Origin: Candidatus Daviesbacteria bacterium
GTDB taxonomy: Bacteria; Patescibacteriota; Microgenomatia; Daviesbacterales; UBA10151
Assembly (NCBI GenBank): GCA_016187025.1
Contig: JACPKM010000001.1
Coordinates: 1-43,187, forward strand
Direction: 5' to 3'
Length of the DNA: 43,187 bases
The notes under the pieces were generated by a model. It had not been told where the DNA came from. It searched no databases and saw only the letters and a list, made by a program, of their open reading frames with translations. This document shows, piece after piece, positions 12,013-34,914 of the stretch. Both the position numbers and the translations under genes were made by a program. How positions within the stretch are numbered: position 1 is the stretch's first letter; every line of letters begins with the position of its first letter.

Positions 12013-13287
<1,275 letters not shown>

Positions 13288-13550
13288 AAGTATTATTCCC
13301 GTAAATATTAGAGGATATTTATTAGAGGAGCACCAAAGAGGGGTAAACGCTCTGTAAGAAATAAAATAGCTAAAAATTCAGATATATAGGGCTTACTTTA
13401 GAAAACAGCTACATATATTAGTACTCTAGGACATTTATCTTTAAGAAGGCTGCCGTTTTTTTGAGCTATTATAGTGTTCAGTTAGCAAAATTTGAGGCTA
13501 TTTTGGGGTATTGACAACAACTTCATTTTTGCTCTATGTTAGAAATAGAG

Positions 13551-13784
13551 AACAATCTCTATCTGCTCTTGAGATTGTTTTCGAACTACATTAAAAAAAG
13601 GGGCATTGCTATTCGAGTCCGTCTGCGGTAGTAATGCTCTTTTTTTGGATTAGTCATTGCCCTTATTGGGAACTAATCCCTGCCCTAGATTAGCCCCCAA
13701 TAAGAGTAACCACTTTCCAAAACCTCCGGTCTTTTATCTAAAATGAAGGTGTTGAGTCCGTCTGCCTCTCAACACCTTCATTTT
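13551..13784. repeat. array of four stem-loops whose loops all contain CTGC (+ strand)
   Basis: Arms: aacaatctc/gagattgtt (13551/13571); aaaaaaaggggcattgcta/tagtaatgctcttttttt (~13593/13629); cttattggg+ctaatc/gattag+cccaataag (13662/13688); aaaatgaaggtgttgag/ctcaacaccttcatttt (13740/13768). Confidence 0.75.
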
Positions 13785-13932
13785 AACCTCTAACCATTAA
13801 AATCAACCCTTGGTCTGCTTTACTCATCAACTTCCTTACCTGCTCTTTTATATCAGCTTCCGGCTGGTGTTTTGAAAATACTCTCCTTTTGACTACTGGT
13901 TTTGATGATCTAAATACCCTAAGGTTGAACAT
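13783..13932 (-). CDS. possible 49-aa basic small protein
   Basis: MFNLRVFRSSKPVVKRRVFSKHQPEADIKEQVRKLMSKADQGLILMVRG*, followed directly by the 17-bp hairpin with a T-run. No clear SD. Confidence 0.35.
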   Translation of the reverse strand: MFNLRVFRSSKPVVKRRVFSKHQPEADIKEQVRKLMSKADQGLILMVRG

Positions 13933-14131
13933 TACATTAAAACTAGCATACTAAAAACTATTTGTCAAGTATTGTGTAACCTATAGGAAAATACAATATT
14001 AAAAAGATAAGGCCTCTAGTTAATAAAAAGGGGTAGTAACGATTAATTAAGTTGCTACAATAGGCTAATCAGCATACCTCTATTTTGTTGTTAACAATAA
14101 AAATTTAATTGTGGAAAACTAAAAACAGGTG

Positions 14132-14998
14132 TTAACCTAGAGGGGTTCCATAGACTAAATAACTAACTAAGTCTGTATTTAACTCTTGTAATTGATTGCG
14201 CCCAACCCAGTCAACTATGTCAGGGACCTCAGGCAAGGACTGATCTAGACTAATTCCAAACCGGACAGATCTTATAGATGCAGCAGGGACAGGTAAATCT
14301 TCCCCGTCGAAATCCCTTAGTAAAACTTGTGATAAATCCGGACTCACCCCATGTAATGGCCTAAAAAACCTGCCACTTTCCCATCTTTCAGCCACCATAG
14401 GACGACCATTTTGTAAAAACCTTACTAAATACCGTCTAATAAGGGCGGGATTGAAAGTGTCATCAGGGGTAGGATTTGCCACTTGTTTTGCAACTAGTAA
14501 CCCAACCCGGGTTTGAAAATCAACCCTTGCTCCTGCTATAAAATCTATTGATCTTGAAGGTTTAACCTCCCATATACCTGCTAAAGCCAGTTCCTGACAC
14601 CTTCCCATCCAGCCCCGCCTCTCTGGAAAATTATTAAGATCTGAGGTCGTACGGTCCAAATATTCCTCTTTTGCCCTTCCTGGGTAACCAAAAATCTGAT
14701 GTGCTGTGTCATGTTGATCTAGTACCCCACCCTCTTGATATAAAGTAGGAATTCCAGCTCTCCGAGCAACACCAGGATCATGAGGATACCAAAAAGGAGC
14801 AAACCAGAGAGGATATGTCCCGTAGTCGGCACGGACCATCTCTGTTTGAGCTGAAGCGGGAGTTATACTAGCTCCGGCAGCTAAAGCTAAACCCGTTACC
14901 ACGGCACCTCCCCATACTCTAAACACACCTCTGCGTGGCATCCGTGTTTGTCCAAAATCATCAATTCCTCTATCTGGTCCTACGTCTGACTCTATCAT
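14132..14998 (-). CDS. secreted protein of unknown function, Tat-like signal
   Basis: MPRRGVFRVWGGAVVTGLALAAGASITPASAQ N-terminal segment; no recognised catalytic domain. Confidence 0.55.
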   Translation of the reverse strand: MIESDVGPDRGIDDFGQTRMPRRGVFRVWGGAVVTGLALAAGASITPASAQTEMVRADYGTYPLWFAPFWYPHDPGVARRAGIPTLYQEGGVLDQHDTAHQIFGYPGRAKEEYLDRTTSDLNNFPERRGWMGRCQELALAGIWEVKPSRSIDFIAGARVDFQTRVGLLVAKQVANPTPDDTFNPALIRRYLVRFLQNGRPMVAERWESGRFFRPLHGVSPDLSQVLLRDFDGEDLPVPAASIRSVRFGISLDQSLPEVPDIVDWVGRNQLQELNTDLVSYLVYGTPLG

Positions 14999-15047: not shown

Positions 15048-15962
15048 CTATTCAGTAAGTTTCCTGGCAAAAACCATTCTTCCTGCAGGAATCTGGAGGC
15101 TTTTTGTTACTTCAACTTGAACAGTTTTACCAATATTATCTGCAGAATCAGATACAACCACCATTGTGCCATCTTGCAAATACCCTACTCCCTGGTTTTG
15201 ATCTTTCCCGATATGGACAATTTTTATTGAAATTTTTTCTCCCGGGATAGCTATTGTTTTTACTGCATTTGCTAAATCATTCACATTCAAAACTGATACC
15301 CCCGAGATGGATGCAAGCCTGTTTAAATTAAAGTCTGTGGTGATAATCTTACCGCTTAAGCTTTTGGCAAGTTTCAGCAGCTTATCATCAACTTGCTTGG
15401 CAGCAACCTCTTTGTCCCAAATTTCAACCCTTAAACTCTTGAGCTTTTTAAGATCCTCAATCACCTCAAAACCCTTTCTTCCCCTCATCCTCTTTAGCTC
15501 ATCTGAGGAGTCTGCCACCTGCTGCAGCTCTGTTAAAACAAACTGGGGAATTAAAACTAACCCACTTACAAACCCAGCCTTGGCTATATCCAAAATCCTG
15601 GCATCAATTATGGCCGAGGTATCCACAATTAGAGGCTTGGTTATGGCTATTGTTCCGGTTGGTGAGGTGGTAGTACCAAATGAGTAGTTGTTACTAGTTG
15701 GGTTAATCCTGACAAATTGGTTTAAAACTTCTGAGGCAACTCTTGCAACTATTAGATTAAAAGCGTGAAGTGTAAACTTGGTCACACTGGCAGCAATATC
15801 TGAAAAGAGCACAAAACCTACAATCCAGGCCATAACAGTTATAAAGGTTTTGACAACAGTGGGATTTGCTCCCTCAACCGGTGGAACAAGCTCGGAAAAA
15901 ATTACTGCAAAAGTTGCAAAAATTGTCGCCACACTAAGGCGGAGTATCCACTTAATACGCAT
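15048..15962 (-). CDS. membrane-anchored PIN/TRAM domain protein (YacL-like)
   Basis: TM N-terminus, PIN (IVDTSAIIDARILDIAKAGFVSG...IITTDFNLNRLASISGVSVLNVNDL), TRAM (GEKISIKIVHIGKDQNQGVGYLQDGTMVVV). Confidence 0.9.
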   Translation of the reverse strand: MRIKWILRLSVATIFATFAVIFSELVPPVEGANPTVVKTFITVMAWIVGFVLFSDIAASVTKFTLHAFNLIVARVASEVLNQFVRINPTSNNYSFGTTTSPTGTIAITKPLIVDTSAIIDARILDIAKAGFVSGLVLIPQFVLTELQQVADSSDELKRMRGRKGFEVIEDLKKLKSLRVEIWDKEVAAKQVDDKLLKLAKSLSGKIITTDFNLNRLASISGVSVLNVNDLANAVKTIAIPGEKISIKIVHIGKDQNQGVGYLQDGTMVVVSDSADNIGKTVQVEVTKSLQIPAGRMVFARKLTE

Positions 15963-20051: not shown

Positions 20052-20896
20052 TAGCTACTATAGGATATGATCCAATAGCATTTCTTACAATTACTCGTAA
20101 GCTTAGACTATACCTTCATCCTCTTATCCTTGAGGAGTCAGCGTTTTAGCTTTCCATTTTAAAGAAAGCTCCGTCCCGATTAAATCGGGACAAGTCGTTA
20201 CGGGGTCATAACAGAAGGAAACTTGTACCTAAATTCTTTTAGTACAAATGGTTCAACTAATTGAATAAATCTTTTAGCACTTTTAGATCGAATTCTAATT
20301 CTGTAATAGGTTTTATCCTTATTAATAGTCGATTCAATCCTAAATTGCTTTTTTAAAAGATCAATTAGTTGTAATTGCTCATTAAAAATAAATTGCTGGG
20401 TGTTTAGATAAATAGATGAATAACTTTTAGAGCCATCGTCCATAAACCAAACTGCCAAGCTGAGTGGACTAAGTGTTAAATTAGATGGTATTATCTTTCT
20501 CCCGTTTTTGTAAAACAAATTGTAAAACGGAGTAAGTACAGGTAATTTTTGAGTAGCAAATCTGTATGCTTCTCTATTACCATTTCCTTTTCTCCATTTT
20601 GGAGAAGTTATTACCAAACTACTCAACTTGCTAAATATCCAATCAACCAGTACTTTTTGACTAAAAGCGTGGTTAATTTCTAAATGAGCATTTTTCTTTA
20701 TTCTCATTGTACCATCTCCTAAGAGAGTTCCAATAAGAATGGACTTTTGTTCTTCTGTCAGACTTCCCACGGTATTGTCCATTGAATTCAGCATAACCCG
20801 AAGGTTAGCCGAAAGTCAACTAGGAGTTCACCGTTATGAGCTGAAACTAAATTAAACAGACTAATGGAATTACTTCCACCACACCCCGATGTGTTG
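20052..20896 (-). other. group I intron at 23S L2500 (845 nt)
   Basis: Exon junction GGCACCT|CGATGTCGG. Intron 5' region has GGGTG pairing with CACCU with U:G at the splice site. Core blocks AACGGTGAA...TAGTTGACTTTCG and GAAGGTATAGTC. Confidence 0.87.
20198..20794 (-). CDS. two-motif LAGLIDADG homing endonuclease (L2500 intron)
   Basis: Motifs ILIGTLLGDGTM and LAVWFMDDGSK; 198 aa; wholly inside the intron. Confidence 0.9.
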   Translation of the reverse strand: MLNSMDNTVGSLTEEQKSILIGTLLGDGTMRIKKNAHLEINHAFSQKVLVDWIFSKLSSLVITSPKWRKGNGNREAYRFATQKLPVLTPFYNLFYKNGRKIIPSNLTLSPLSLAVWFMDDGSKSYSSIYLNTQQFIFNEQLQLIDLLKKQFRIESTINKDKTYYRIRIRSKSAKRFIQLVEPFVLKEFRYKFPSVMTP

Positions 20897-20939
20897 AGGT
20901 GCCGAACCTTGCCGTCCTTGTGGACTGTAGGGCAAGACT

Positions 20940-20972
<33 letters not shown>

Positions 20973-21136
20973 AAGCTCACTCGCTACCACTAGCCAAGTG
21001 AGGATCACTAAGACCTGCTTTCGCACCTGCTCGAGCTGTTTCTCTTGCAGTCAAGCACACTTTATACCTTTACGCTTAAATGCGCGGTTTCCATTCGCGC
21101 TAAGTGTACCTTTGTACCCCTCCGTTACTTTTTTGG

Positions 21137-21686
21137 CAAATTTGTTAACTTTTAAGTGGAAGTTTGTAATGGAAATATTGCAGGATTTTATCTTTCAATA
21201 AATCATTTAGTATAACAGCACTTTTAGCTGAAATATAAATCTGCAATCCATCTTTCTGCGTTCTAATACTTGAGTATTCTTGAACGCACTTTTTAACTTT
21301 CCGTCAAAGTTCTAGGTCATTTCTGCCTAGATCTCTACATCGCTGCAAAGTTCAGACTATATCATGATCCAATTTTCATTGGATCCCAACGTATAGTCGT
21401 TGAGGATTCATCGACTTTTCGATGTTTCCTGCTGATTGACTGCACCGAATACATTTTTAGTTGAGATTTTGATATTAATTCAGTATTACCCGAATCTTAC
21501 CCAAATGTCAATCCTTCGATTTCTCTCAGGATCTCTGCTTCGTTTCTCAGGTCGAAGTATCAACTAGTATCGGATTCTCAGTTGTTCCAGCATATAGTTG
21601 GTTTAATTTATTACGCGGTCACTCATTGCAAGTTACCTCACAATGCCCCCAAAAGATTCGAACAGAGTGTAAGAATCATCTACTTA
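21137..21686 (-). other. group I intron at 23S L2262 (550 nt), no long ORF
   Basis: Exon junction GGTCCCCT|CCAAAAAAGTAACGG. GGGGG guide for CCCCU. Core CAATCAGCAGGAAAC, ATCCTCAACGACTATA, GATATAGTCTGAAC. Terminal G. Confidence 0.9.
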
Positions 21687-21836
21687 AGGGGACCGCCCCA
21701 GTCAAACTGCCCGCCAGACCTTGTCCCAAGTCCTGTTTTTATAAGGATCTTGGTTAGACCTAAGTTCAAAAAAGAGAGGTGTTTCATTGTCGCCAAAGCT
21801 CCCTCCTACACTACACAATTTTAAACTTAAATCAAG

Positions 21837-21874
<38 letters not shown>

Positions 21875-21994
21875 AAGCATGGGAAGGCCGCATCTTCACA
21901 GCCATTGCAATTTCGCCGGGTCTATCCTCAAGACAGTCACTAAGTCGTTCTACCTTTCGTGCGGGTCTGAACTCACCAGACAAGGAATTTCGCT

Positions 21995-22649
21995 TATTTT
22001 CGTTATCACTAGGCTCCTTAACCTAGCTCCTATATGTCGCCACATAGATCGAACCATATCTTTCCATCAGATGACGGATTCTGCGTATGGTCTCTGAGGA
22101 TTCTTAAGATTTCTTATTTTCTCTAAACCTTCTGGTGTAAGATGAATATTTTTTAATTTCATCTTTACTACTTTACAAAAAACATTAAAATCGTTTTTCT
22201 TGTAAGTAATAAGTTGATTTGCCTTAAAGAAAGGAATTATTTTTTCAGATAAATCTTTTGTAGATCGAACACAATAGCGGTAAATATTTTCTTTATGGTT
22301 ATCATATCGTCTATTTACATAGATCGCTCCGCATCCAAAAAAGTCTTTGATTACTTGTAAAGAATCTAGACTCTTTTGCCCTTGCGTAACCACAAATTCA
22401 GGTAATACCTGAAACCCGCTTTTTGTTGTTCTATTTCTAAAAATAGATATCGAAAAGCATCCTTCTCCATCAACAAAACCAACTATCCAGTTTGAAATCT
22501 TAAGTCTTTCCTGCTGATCGTCTGCACTAGGTGCTTTATGACTTGGCATAACTATGTGTAGTTAATACCATAGTAGCACTAGATTCTCAGATTTTCCAGC
22601 ATATAGCAGAATTTTAAAACACATTGGCACTTCCTAAGGCAGCGATATT
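21995..22649 (-). other. group I intron at 23S L1931 (655 nt)
   Basis: Exon junction CCTATGGT|AGCGAAATT. Guide GCCTTAG for CUAUGGU. Core GATCAGCAGGAAA, CCTCAGAGACCATACGC, AAAGATATGGTTC. Confidence 0.9.
22067..22549 (-). CDS. single-motif LAGLIDADG homing endonuclease (L1931 intron)
   Basis: WIVGFVDGEGCFSISIFRN...GFQVLPEFVVTQGQKSLDSLQVIKDFFGCG; 160 aa; wholly inside the intron. Confidence 0.92.
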   Translation of the reverse strand: MPSHKAPSADDQQERLKISNWIVGFVDGEGCFSISIFRNRTTKSGFQVLPEFVVTQGQKSLDSLQVIKDFFGCGAIYVNRRYDNHKENIYRYCVRSTKDLSEKIIPFFKANQLITYKKNDFNVFCKVVKMKLKNIHLTPEGLEKIRNLKNPQRPYAESVI

Positions 22650-24177
22650 ACCATAGGACCCTTATAGTTAAGGCCGCCGTTCACCAGGACTTATACCACA
22701 TCCTCATCTAAATCTTGCGACTTAAAGTCAAATGCAGAATTAATCTACTGGCACTGGGCAGGTGTCAACCCCTATACATCTTCTTTCGAATTAGCAGGGA
22801 TCTGTGTTTTTGTTAAACAGTCGCTCAGTGTCGTTTGCTGCGGGCCGGGCTTGCGCCTGGCCAGGACATCTCGAAAACTTACGTCCAGCTGTTTTGCCGA
22901 GTTCCTTAAGGATAGTTCTCCCGATCGCCTTTGTATACTCAACTCGCCCACCTGTGTCGGTTTAGGTACGGCTGAAACTATTCTCCTTCACGAGTCTTTT
23001 CTCGGAAACAGAAAGTGATTGACTTACGCTATCATAGCTTGTATTTTGGACCATGTACCAAAAGCGCGCAAGCGCGCATGGTACGTGGTTGTAGAAGCGG
23101 ATTTTCCTACCTCCACTAACTTGCTATTTAGACCAAGATATACTTGATTCAATTCTTCCCACTTCGTTCACCCTTAAAGGCTTCCGATATTGCGCTCCTT
23201 GCGGAGCATACATCGAAACTTGTCAGAATAACCTCAATACAGGAATTTTAACCTGTTGTCCATCGACTACGCCATTTGGCCTCATCTTAGGGCCGATTAA
23301 CTCCACGCCGATTAACGTTGCATGGAAAACCTTGGGCTTTCGGCGCTCCAATTTCTCATTGGAGTCTCGCTACTCATACCGGCATTCTCACTTCCAAACA
23401 CTCCACCAAACCTTACAATTTAGCTTCATAGTATTTGGAACGCTCCCCTACCACGCCACATTCATGTAACTGAACGTGGCATCCAAAGCTTCGGTAGTAA
23501 GTTTTAGCCCCGGTAAATTGTCGGCGCGAAAATCCATATTAGACCAGTGAGCTGTTACGCTATCTTTAAAAGGTGGCTGCTTCTAAGCCAACTTCCTGGC
23601 TGTCTAAGGATTCTCACATCCTTTTACACTTAACTTACATTTAGGGACCTTAGCTGTTGATCTGGGATGTTTCCCTCGAGCCCGCTCCGCTTAGCCGGAT
23701 CGGACTGACTCCTCAAGAATAGTCAAAGTATTCGGAGTTTGGTTGAACCTACGGTCTTGCGACCATAGAATCCATCCAGTGCTCTACCCCTTTGACACTA
23801 CCTTGAAGGCTATACCTCAATATATTTCGGGGAGAACCAGCTATCTCCGAGTTCGTTAGGCATATCACCCCTAACCACACTTCATCCCAAGCAATTGATC
23901 TTGCAACGGGTTCGGGCCTCCATCCCGCTTTCGCGGGACTTCACCCTGAGCATGGTTAGCTCACTCGGTTTCGGGTCTACCACAATCACCTATCGCGCAC
24001 TTCGCGCTCGCTTTCACTACGCCTACCTAAGAAATACTTAGTTAGACTTGATGATTGGGATAACTCACCGGTTCATTCTTCAATAGGCACGCGGTCAGGA
24101 CGTACCAGATGGTACATCCCTCCCACTGCTTGTCAGCATACGGTTTCAGGTACTATTTCACTGAGCGTTTCGCTCTT

Positions 24178-24217
<40 letters not shown>

Positions 24218-24928
24218 CGAAAGTATATTTAGCCTTAGGAGATTGGTCCTCCTAGATTCACTCAGGATTACACGTGTCCTGAGTTACTTGGGAAATCACC
24301 CGCGGTAGTTCGGATTTCGCTTACGGGGCTATCACCCTCTTTGGCAAATCTTTCCATATCTTTCTTCTATCCTTGCTACTCACTACTGGTGTCCCGCATA
24401 TCCAATTCCTTGCGGAACTGGTTTAGGCTGTTCCCATTTCGCTCGCCGCTACTTAGGGAATCGCTAATTGCTTTCTTTTCCTGCGCCTACTTAGATGTTT
24501 CAGTTCAGCGCGTACCCTTCTTTTACCTATGAATTCAGTAAAAGATCTGTCATAAAGACAGGAGTTATCTCATTCGGAGATCTCTGGATCACAGCTTCTT
24601 GGCAGCTCCCCAGAGCTTATCGCAACCATGTACGTCCTTCATCGGTACTTTCGACCTAGGCATCCACCGTATGCATTAATGTTGAGTAATTTTTGGCATC
24701 AAATTAGCAAAGCTTTAAAAGCCTCGCTGTTAAAAATTTGACCTTCCATTTTTTCCGTATTCACATTTCAAAGTGCAAATTGTTTTTGGGCGATCCTGGA
24801 CCGCCACCATCTGTTATTTAGTCTTTCTGCCAGATCGCCCATCACGAACATTAGCTCGGAATGGACTTTTTGGTAGTTTGTCTAAATATCAGACAACGGT
24901 TGTCCAAAAATGTCCAAGTGTTTATGGG

Positions 24929-32206: not shown

Positions 32207-32838
32207 GATTTTAATTCCAAAAAAGTGGTGGGTTTATGAATCCCGATAAATCGGGAGAAAGTTATTTATAGAAGACTTTCAAACTTCTTTCACCTTATGC
32301 GTGACATAAGTTGATCTGGATCAAACCGTGGCTACCTTCCTTGCGGATTAAGGAATCCTCCAATTTGATCTATATCTCCAGAAAGGAGGTGATCCATCCC
32401 CAGCTTCGGCTAGGGATACCTTGTTACGACTTAAGCCTCATCGCTGGTTTCACCTTCTATCTATATACATAGATATTCGGGTGCCCCCAACTTTGCTGCC
32501 TTGACGGGCGGTGTGTACAAGACCCGAGAACGTATTCACCGCGGCCCGCTGATCCGCGATTACTAGCAATTCCAACTTCATGAGGTCGAGTTGCAGACCT
32601 CAATCTGAACTGAGGCGAAATTTCAGAGATTAGCTTCTTATTACTAAGTCGCTGCTCATTGTTTTTCGCCATTGTAGGGTGTGTGTCGCCCAGGGCGTAA
32701 GAACCGTGCTGACTTGACGTCATCCGCGCCTTCCTTCCCGATATAATCGGGACCGTTCCGCATGGATTATTTAACATACGGTGCGGGTTGCGCTCGTTGT
32801 CCCACTTAAGGGTACAGCTCACGCCACGAGCTGACGAC

Positions 32839-33643
32839 CATGTTAATCTACAGTTTCCTGTAGCACGGACTATACCTTCTCCCTCCTTAATATTTAGGTT
32901 AGGGAGCCAACCGTTTGAATAACCTCATTTGGCTATTCTCAATCCATAGCTATTATGGATATCAGTCTCTACGGGGCAAGTTTTACAGAATACTTTTTAA
33001 TTGCTAATGCAATTCGTTCTCTGTAACTCTTCTTTAAATATAGAACAAATGTTCTTGCAGCTTTATATTGATATAAAGTCACATTGGTCTCTCCAAACAA
33101 TTTCTGATCTCTTATAGCATCATCCTCGCTCGAATAAGCAATTCTGATACCCGATCTGTGTTTAGTATCTATGTGTCCATCACCATCTATTCTTCCAGCT
33201 AAATAAGCTGTTAAATAGCGCTCTGGTACATATAACTCTCCAGTTTTGAAAGACATAAACATTCGCGTTAAAGGTCTATTGTTAATATAAACCTGTACTG
33301 CTTCTTGCTTACGCTTATCACCTACTCTTACTTTATAAATCCTTTCTTTTATGGGGTGACTTGGCGCCACTTTTAAAAGAAACTTTGCGAATTTACTAAT
33401 AAGAATTGGGTTAACTGAGGTCAAACCAATGGAACTAGACCACCAATAACCATCTGCTAACCAAAGACCTAAAATATAGAAATCTTCAGCTGTTTTAAAG
33501 AAAAACTTGCTTCCCACGGTATTACCCATTAATTCCAGATTACCCGAAAGTAACACGAAAATCAATTAGGGCTTCACCGTTTTGGGTTGGTTGTTTTTAT
33601 CTGACATTACTGTCTGACCGGCCATCAGGTCCATTGGACCTTA
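32839..33643 (-). other. group I intron in 16S after about E. coli 1060 (805 nt)
   Basis: Exon junction GCATGGCT|GTCGTCAGC. GGCC guide for GGCU. Core AACGGTGAAGCCCTAATTGATTTTCG and GAAGGTATAGTCC. Terminal G. Confidence 0.9.
32969..33565 (-). CDS. two-motif LAGLIDADG homing endonuclease (16S intron)
   Basis: Motifs YILGLWLADGYWW and LTAYLAGRIDGDGHID; likely start is MGNTVGS, inside the ORF. Confidence 0.88.
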   Translation of the reverse strand: MIFVLLSGNLELMGNTVGSKFFFKTAEDFYILGLWLADGYWWSSSIGLTSVNPILISKFAKFLLKVAPSHPIKERIYKVRVGDKRKQEAVQVYINNRPLTRMFMSFKTGELYVPERYLTAYLAGRIDGDGHIDTKHRSGIRIAYSSEDDAIRDQKLFGETNVTLYQYKAARTFVLYLKKSYRERIALAIKKYSVKLAP

Positions 33644-33760
33644 GCCATGCAGCATCTGTGTACCACCCTCGAAGGTCACACGTTTCCGTGCGCTTGCAGG
33701 TACATGTCAAGCCCTGGTGAGGTGTTTCGCTTTGTATCGAATTAAACCACACGCTCCACT

Positions 33761-33794
<34 letters not shown>

Positions 33795-34226
33795 TAAACT
33801 TGCGTTCGTACTCCCCAGGCGGGATGCTTAACGCGTTAGCTGCGACAGCCAAAAAATCGGCTATCTAGCATCCATCGTTTACAGCTAGGAATACACAGGT
33901 CTCTAATCTGTTTCTCTCCCCTAGCTTTCGTGCCTCAGCGTCATTAGTTTGTTAGATGTCTGCCTACGCCTTTGACGTTCCCAATCATATCAACGCATTT
34001 CACTGCTCCATGATTGGTTCCAACATCCTCCCAAACAATCAAGAATAACCATCTTCTGCCCAAATCCGTGGTTAGGCCACGGGCTTTCAAACAGAATGCG
34101 TCATTCCGCCTACGCAACACTTTACGCCCAATGAATCCGGATAACGCTTGCCGCCTACGTATTACCGAGGCTTCTGGCACGTAGTTAGCAGCGGCTTATT
34201 CGCATATTACCGTCATAATCTTCATA

Positions 34227-34257
<31 letters not shown>

Positions 34258-34601
34258 AATCCTCCACGCGGCGTCGCTCGGTCAGGCTTTCGCCCATTGC
34301 CGAATATTCCCAGTTGCTGCCATCCGTAGATGTACGGGCCGTGTCGCAGTCCCGTTGTGGCTGACCGACCTCTCAGTCCAGCTACCCGTCGTCGCCTTGG
34401 TAGGCAATTACCCCACCAACTAGCTGATAGGACGCAGGCTCATCTTAAAGCGCATTGCTGCTTTAATCTCGCGATCGCATTGGAAATTACCCCCGATTTC
34501 TCGGGGCTATGTCCAACTTTAAGGTAGATTCCCACGCATTACTCACCCGTCCGCCGGTTGTACTTCGATTGCTCTCAGTACCCCCTTGACTTGCATGCTT
34601 A

Positions 34602-34644
<43 letters not shown>

Positions 34645-34914
34645 AAAAAGAAAAAACGAGGTTGTAGTTTTACAACCTAATTTTAAAACCCACCACTTCT
34701 CCGGAATTAAAAAACCTGCCTGCCGGCAGGTTGGCCGAAGAGTGGTTTTTAAATAAATTCACTTCTTCGGTTGTTAAGGTGCCCTTCGACTACGCTCAGG
34801 GTAAACCCTCCGATAAACTCAGGATAAGCTTACCAGATCGTAGTCAAAGATAAATTGTGAAGTAGTATTCTTTGTTAGAACTTTCTCCAATCTGTCCAAC
34901 TTAAGGACGTGGAC

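Follow-up and report, generated by a model that had tools for sequence, protein, structure and literature searches.

Four consecutive hairpins, each presenting CTGC in its loop, occupy positions 13551–13785 of the window (the whole 43,187-nt stretch of DNA that was analysed), and the question is whether they form one array of equivalent binding sites, a run of terminators, or parts of separate elements. All four lie within an 843-nt gap between leftward ORFs at 12013–13287 and 14132–14998, and were present as the first-pass annotation had described them: hairpin A at 13551–13579 (loop TATCTGCTCTT, fold z-score −4.0), hairpin B (loop TTCGAGTCCGTCTGCGG, −5.3), hairpin C (loop CCTGCCCTA, −6.6), and hairpin D (loop TCCGTCTGCCT, −8.5), with 0 of 200 shuffles matching the native fold for each. 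The last stem, annotated as perfect and 17 bp long, was perfect but comprised 18 bp, and the sequence that two loops had been said to share, GAGTCCGTCTGC, was found as exact copies at 13615 and 13754, although in hairpin D its GAG belongs to the stem; it has only 3 occurrences in the 1.03-Mb genome. CTGC loops were above chance, as had been supposed: the 43-kb window has 13 strong inverted repeats, and CTGC stands in the loops of these four alone.

Hairpins A and B are predicted to form an sRNA gene of about 100 nt on the plus strand (sRNA-1, Table 1), with B as its intrinsic terminator and a 5′ end placed from the promoter position. The layout in a 26-genome alignment was TTGACA, hairpin A, linker, hairpin B, and T-run, with TTGACA at the sRNA-1 position in 26 of 26 aligned relatives and a −10-like hexamer at the matching distance, so that the sequence provides the own promoter and intrinsic terminator of a trans-acting sRNA, and transcription is predicted. 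A 24-sequence alignment, which took in four other families, gave both-side changes in 12 of 12 A-stem pairs and an A-stem covariation score of 0.378 versus 0.162 in shuffles (0 of 500 shuffles as high); CTG in loop A was invariant across the 24 sequences. The B stem was nearly invariant and kept two G.U pairs, equivalent to A.C mismatches on the opposite strand, and since these pairs work only on the plus strand, sRNA-1 is most likely read from that strand. The conserved structure expected of a trans-acting sRNA was found in both hairpins, by covariation in A and by stem invariance in B, with the loops unpaired in the fold.

Covariation and recurrence in relatives, the two checks proposed in the first-pass annotation, were run and bear out its view of a structured, conserved RNA with probably functional loops: the A stem covaries, the region was found again in relatives, and in other genera the orthologous locus again shows each loop type, carried by different stems. 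The idea of one binding array of four equivalent members did not survive; only A and B make up the sRNA, and four equal loops of one array were rejected because C and D behave as separate elements.

Table 1. Features of the locus, in window coordinates.
Feature	Positions	Strand	Basis or occurrence
Conserved neighbour c0: gene for secreted low-complexity protein, LPKTG-like C-terminal motif	12013–13287	−	Gene order, translation
sRNA-1 promoter (TTGACA 13511–13516, spacer 18 nt, TATGTT 13535–13540)	13511–13540	+	26 aligned relatives
sRNA-1, predicted (hairpin A, linker, terminator hairpin B)	13547–13647	+	Promoter and terminator kept, covariance model
Hairpin A (loop 13560–13570, UAUCUGCUCUU)	13548–13582	+	Fold, covariation
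Hairpin B, predicted terminator (loop 13612–13628, UUCGAGUCCGUCUGCGG; U-run 13640–13646)	13594–13646	+	Fold, stem conservation
Hairpin C (loop 13679–13687, CCTGCCCTA)	13662–13704		Single copy per locus
Hairpin D, likely terminator of convergent transcript (minus-strand loop AGGCAGACGGA, complementary to loop B)	13739–13785	−	19/30 family loci
49-codon basic ORF (MFNLRVFRSS...DQGLILMVRG)	13783–13932	−	C-terminal motif common to about two thirds of 30 family loci
−35 box TTGACA of convergent transcript	13963–13968	−	30 family loci
Conserved neighbour c2: PIN/TRAM protein gene	15048–15962	−	Pfam, gene order

Elsewhere in the window, the 23S gene (20811–24688, minus strand, 3878 nt) and the 16S gene (32382–34650, minus strand, 2269 nt) are both far above the usual length, probably owing to rRNA introns or insertions, and an ORF at 20198–20794 (minus strand) resembles a LAGLIDADG-type protein.

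Convergent to sRNA-1, the promoter of a small ORF, TTGACAAATA[GA]T, was found in the same place in nearly all 30 family loci. The ORF in relatives encodes 45–60 aa ending in ..EQVKKVL..DQ(K/Q/G)LILMVRG, with variants LILMVR(G/N/S), and had no Pfam match. Hairpin D was at one stage considered as the terminator of the PIN/TRAM gene, which was dropped when the small ORF was found to end about 25 nt before D on the minus strand. The minus-strand loop of D carries GCAGACGGA, the exact complement of loop B, and a downstream hairpin with a CCGTCTGC-containing loop was found in 19 of 30 family loci, on at least 7 unrelated stems. In four D-less loci the ORF ends 21–33 nt from loop B, so that B itself can be the terminator of the convergent ORF; two further D-less loci have a larger distance and yielded no such hairpin by the criteria used. 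Via D or B, the convergent transcript would end in a GCAGACGGA loop complementary to loop B, and the first-pass remark that terminators need no shared loop proved to be the useful clue. CTATAGG or CTATCGG boxes were seen near the minus-strand promoters at both locus ends (about 13970–13990) and near the surface-gene promoters of relatives, and are possibly a regulator site.

The loop of hairpin C reads CCTGCCC and then TA, AA, or GA; its stems vary, and each locus has one copy. Its place in the window is between B and D. Relatives usually have it upstream of the sRNA promoter, and in many of them it sits between two divergent promoters. At three loci, C is nested in a larger inverted repeat with a second CCTGCCCT.

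Searching with a 271-bp query showed the region in 33 of 57 genomes, own genome counted, with hairpin B identity of up to 97% across genera. Of 382 genomes of the class, 188 gave a covariance-model match to sRNA-1, nearly always a single one; the E-values are rough and many of the deep matches weak, but loci fetched from other families had the same promoter–A–B layout. Exact matches to the hairpin B loop and inner stem in a named genome collection came mostly from Candidatus Daviesbacteria, and the remaining ones from unclassified, Microgenomates, or Patescibacteria bins. No Rfam 15 family reached its gathering score within 13290–14130 (best sub-threshold E 0.2 or worse), and a known Rfam RNA was rejected for that reason; in the literature, no sRNA was found described for Microgenomates, and nothing relevant on CPR sRNAs. 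sRNA-1 appears to represent a previously undescribed family with an unusual convergent complementary partner.

Sites complementary to the loops were sought in the family of this bacterium (f1, Daviesbacteria), using mechanical ORF calls as gene starts and, for own-genome statistics, pattern searches and 20 stretches of 20 kb, which together with the window cover about 43% of the genome. Outside the locus, the own genome holds GAGTCCGTCTGC once only and TCCGTCTGC four times. On the opposite strand, two of these four TCCGTCTGC sites read AGAGCAG...GCAGACGGAC and follow a TTGACA promoter. The first falls within a MerR-HTH/transmembrane/surface protein gene leader, and the second spans the ATG of a gene for a glucosaminidase-like protein, whose glucosaminidase match is below the Pfam cut-off. 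Independent GCAGACGGAC matches in relatives fell on the same MerR-HTH gene family. Counting sites of at least 8 nt within 350 nt upstream of the HTH, GCAGACGGA(C) was found in 15 of 27 MerR-HTH surface-gene leaders of the family versus a mean of 0.22 for shuffled 10-mers (maximum 15 among 2000 shuffles, presumably from shuffles nearly recreating the site), usually between promoter and start codon; the other 12 of the 27 candidate genes were without it. Within 443 kb of the own genome, GCAGACG occurred in 5 start regions versus 0.66 expected, and the same-polarity CCGTCTG in 0. Predicted loop-B duplexes had energies of −18 to −28 kcal/mol. Complementarity to unlinked mRNA starts, as would be expected for a trans-acting sRNA, was in this way found in the own family, and of the protein- or RNA-binding array originally envisaged, it is RNA base pairing rather than a protein array that the complementarity of mRNA sites to the loops fits better.

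For loop A, its complement AAGAGCAG was found 12–45 nt 5′ of the GCAGACGGA site in 4 leaders (11 of 2000 shuffled 8-mers reached four), and loop-A complements at gene starts genome-wide were weakly enriched, about 1–2 fold. The double site AGAGCAG..GCAGACGGA was rejected as a general rule: 54 genomes gave 3 matches, of which the own genome accounts for 2, and the reversed-pattern control gave 0. Near the ORF start, 9 of the 27 genes had CCGTCTG, TCGTCTG, or CCGTCT, and where the leader site is present too, such an early-ORF motif could form a hairpin with it around the start codon. Two genomes (G009 and G015) have leader sites, yet the A–B gene was not found there. In the former (G009:C6:45751), a terminator-like hairpin whose loop is GCAGACGGAC comes immediately after a TTGACA promoter and 58 nt ahead of an ORF for a secreted protein; this hairpin is a possible attenuator. 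At five loci, AAATCTATGCA / TGCATAGATTT repeats were seen in and around MerR-HTH surface-gene promoters; they may be an operator at which the HTH domain exerts autoregulation.

Taken with the conserved gene layout, these sites argue that sRNA-1 is probably a trans-acting base-pairing sRNA for envelope genes, accompanied by a convergent complementary partner. It would recognise other RNAs via its two exposed loops: loop B (GAGUCCGUCUGC) would pair in f1 with GCAGACGGA(C) sites located in the leader or the initial codons of envelope mRNAs, mainly those for MerR-HTH/transmembrane/surface proteins, and in some mRNAs loop A (CUGCUCUU) would also pair, with AAGAGCAG sites. Given the order in which the mRNAs carry the A- and B-sites, one continuous duplex is ruled out, and the two loops would make separate contacts. 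Since many of the sites overlap the ribosome-binding region or immediately precede it, translation repression is the likelier outcome; where CCGUCUG at an ORF start pairs with its own leader, sRNA-1 would relieve the hairpin, and activation would be possible. The convergent transcript, carrying the 49-codon ORF and ending in D, or in B in some relatives, would display the complement of loop B and may be a sponge, or else the other arm of a switch. The loop matches at surface-gene starts suggest that sRNA-1 controls cell-surface content.

Two further families were searched for such sites; none were found in f27. In f6, loop B is GAGTTTCAGTCTGCGG, and the seed gave 18 matches outside the sRNA locus in 12 genomes (5 in total for the reversed-pattern control). 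In about nine of these, TTTCAGTCTGC in the same polarity stood at the translation start of a gene, in most cases one for a secreted or surface protein; a camelysin/TasA-like protein was among them, and the motif at surface-gene starts was UUUCAG(U/C)CUGC (DNA TTTCAG[TC]CTGC). These mRNA sites share the polarity of sRNA-1, which makes pairing between the two impossible. Behind a conserved convergent promoter, the f6 locus carries GCAGGCTGAAA, exact in 9 of 12 loci; the convergent RNA carries GCAGGCUGAAA, and GCAGGCTGAAA complements loop B with one G.U pair. Predicted pairing energies between the convergent RNA and the start sites were −17.7 to −22.2 kcal/mol, and orthologous targets (L250 and L273 versus L286 and L293) have T or C opposite a G of the convergent RNA, as expected if that RNA pairs with the start sites. 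A tentative reading, based for the polarity switch on this one other family, is that a single locus, kept through much of the class, codes for two convergent RNAs with complementary recognition sequences and that the mRNA-targeting strand was switched between families. It would have sRNA-1 pairing with envelope mRNAs in the Daviesbacteria family and the convergent RNA doing so in f6, and perhaps a near-invariant sRNA-1 terminator stem on which only the loop seed was rewritten.

The f6 data would also suit an sRNA-1 that is itself a sponge, or anti-sRNA, whose loop B mimics mRNA starts and sequesters the convergent RNA as the real mRNA regulator: TTTCAG[TC]CTGC stands at envelope-gene starts, the GCAGGCUGAAA RNA is present in 9 of 12 loci, and orthologous targets alternate between T and C opposite its G. 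The mRNA sites of the own family are, however, of the opposite polarity (15 of 27 leaders; 5 versus 0 start regions), which implies pairing with sRNA-1 and not with the convergent RNA, except in genes with an early-ORF CCGTCTG, and we regard this sponge role as unlikely. Titration of a translational repressor in the manner of CsrB/RsmZ, the protein binding CUGC-type sRNA loops as well as matching mRNA motifs, would explain why CUGYC(C/U) is common to the A and C loops although their stems differ from family to family, and why sRNA and mRNAs of f6 carry a same-polarity motif. It is nonetheless distinctly improbable, since own-family targets bear the complement and not the motif, the T/C alternation in f6 fits G.U/G-C pairing, and CsrA (PF02599) was absent in 8 of 8 genomes, the control being found in 3 named genomes. 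A CsrA sponge was rejected on the last of these grounds; titration of a protein other than CsrA is possible.

That the hairpins are mere intrinsic terminators or repeats, with shared loops devoid of function, is very improbable: B and D have U-runs and are terminators on paper, and A- and T-runs flank B on both sides, but the loops of A, C, and D stay constant while their stems change, the opposite of what a terminator needs, a promoter is conserved directly upstream of A, and the sites recur at unrelated genes. We give just as little credence to a DNA-level element such as a replication origin, a binding-site cluster, or a recombination site. Inverted repeats do double as DNA palindromes, and in the five genomes that have both on one contig the element is found 72–178 kb downstream of dnaA, a distance that follows from conserved gene order and on which a replication origin was rejected; against it, stems change with compensation and loops do not, G.U pairs are kept, and the layout is that of promoter and terminator.

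Among known systems, the base-pairing sRNA proposed here would work most like LhrC of Listeria monocytogenes, which has five copies and whose loop A and terminator loop both bind the lapB adhesin mRNA near its start, with UCCC/CU-rich motifs acting against the Shine-Dalgarno region (PMC4132741). Both are short sRNAs with related C-rich motifs in loop A and the terminator loop and with surface-gene targets, predicted ones for sRNA-1. sRNA-1 differs in its motifs (GUCCGUCUGC and CUGCUCUU), in its target gene families, and in having a convergent complementary partner, none being described for LhrC; in place of several near-identical copies, nearly always one model match per genome was found. With motif and copy number different, sRNA-1 is not a member of the LhrC family, and we know of no sequence relation between the two. 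Another Listeria sRNA, Rli27, is reported to act on the mRNA of a cell-wall protein at its long 5′ leader (PMC4214639). It resembles sRNA-1 as an sRNA acting on a surface-protein mRNA leader and is set apart, on a broad comparison, in organism, sequence, and architecture.

In sRNA sponges and anti-sRNAs, some of which lie in 3′ untranslated regions, a second RNA mimics or complements the seed and could absorb the sRNA. Here, unlike in those, the partner is encoded convergently next door, with the complement in its terminator loop in the own family and near its 5′ end in f6. CsrB, CsrC, and RsmZ RNAs likewise have several hairpins with a repeated loop motif, which is GGA, and CsrA is the best-known binder of such arrays. 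sRNA-1 has two hairpins only, and neither of their plus-strand loops contains GGA; it has no Rfam match at gathering score, and PF02599 was found in 0 of 8 genomes.

To our knowledge, Patescibacteria (CPR) have hardly been studied for post-transcriptional control, and organisms of this group are thought to live in contact with other cells. sRNA-1 would give these ultra-small bacteria a class-wide RNA with a predicted set of envelope and surface-protein targets. With loops and target sites named, mutate-and-restore tests can be designed directly. The RNA would matter as a case in which an antisense seed, and perhaps the active strand too, evolves on a frozen scaffold.
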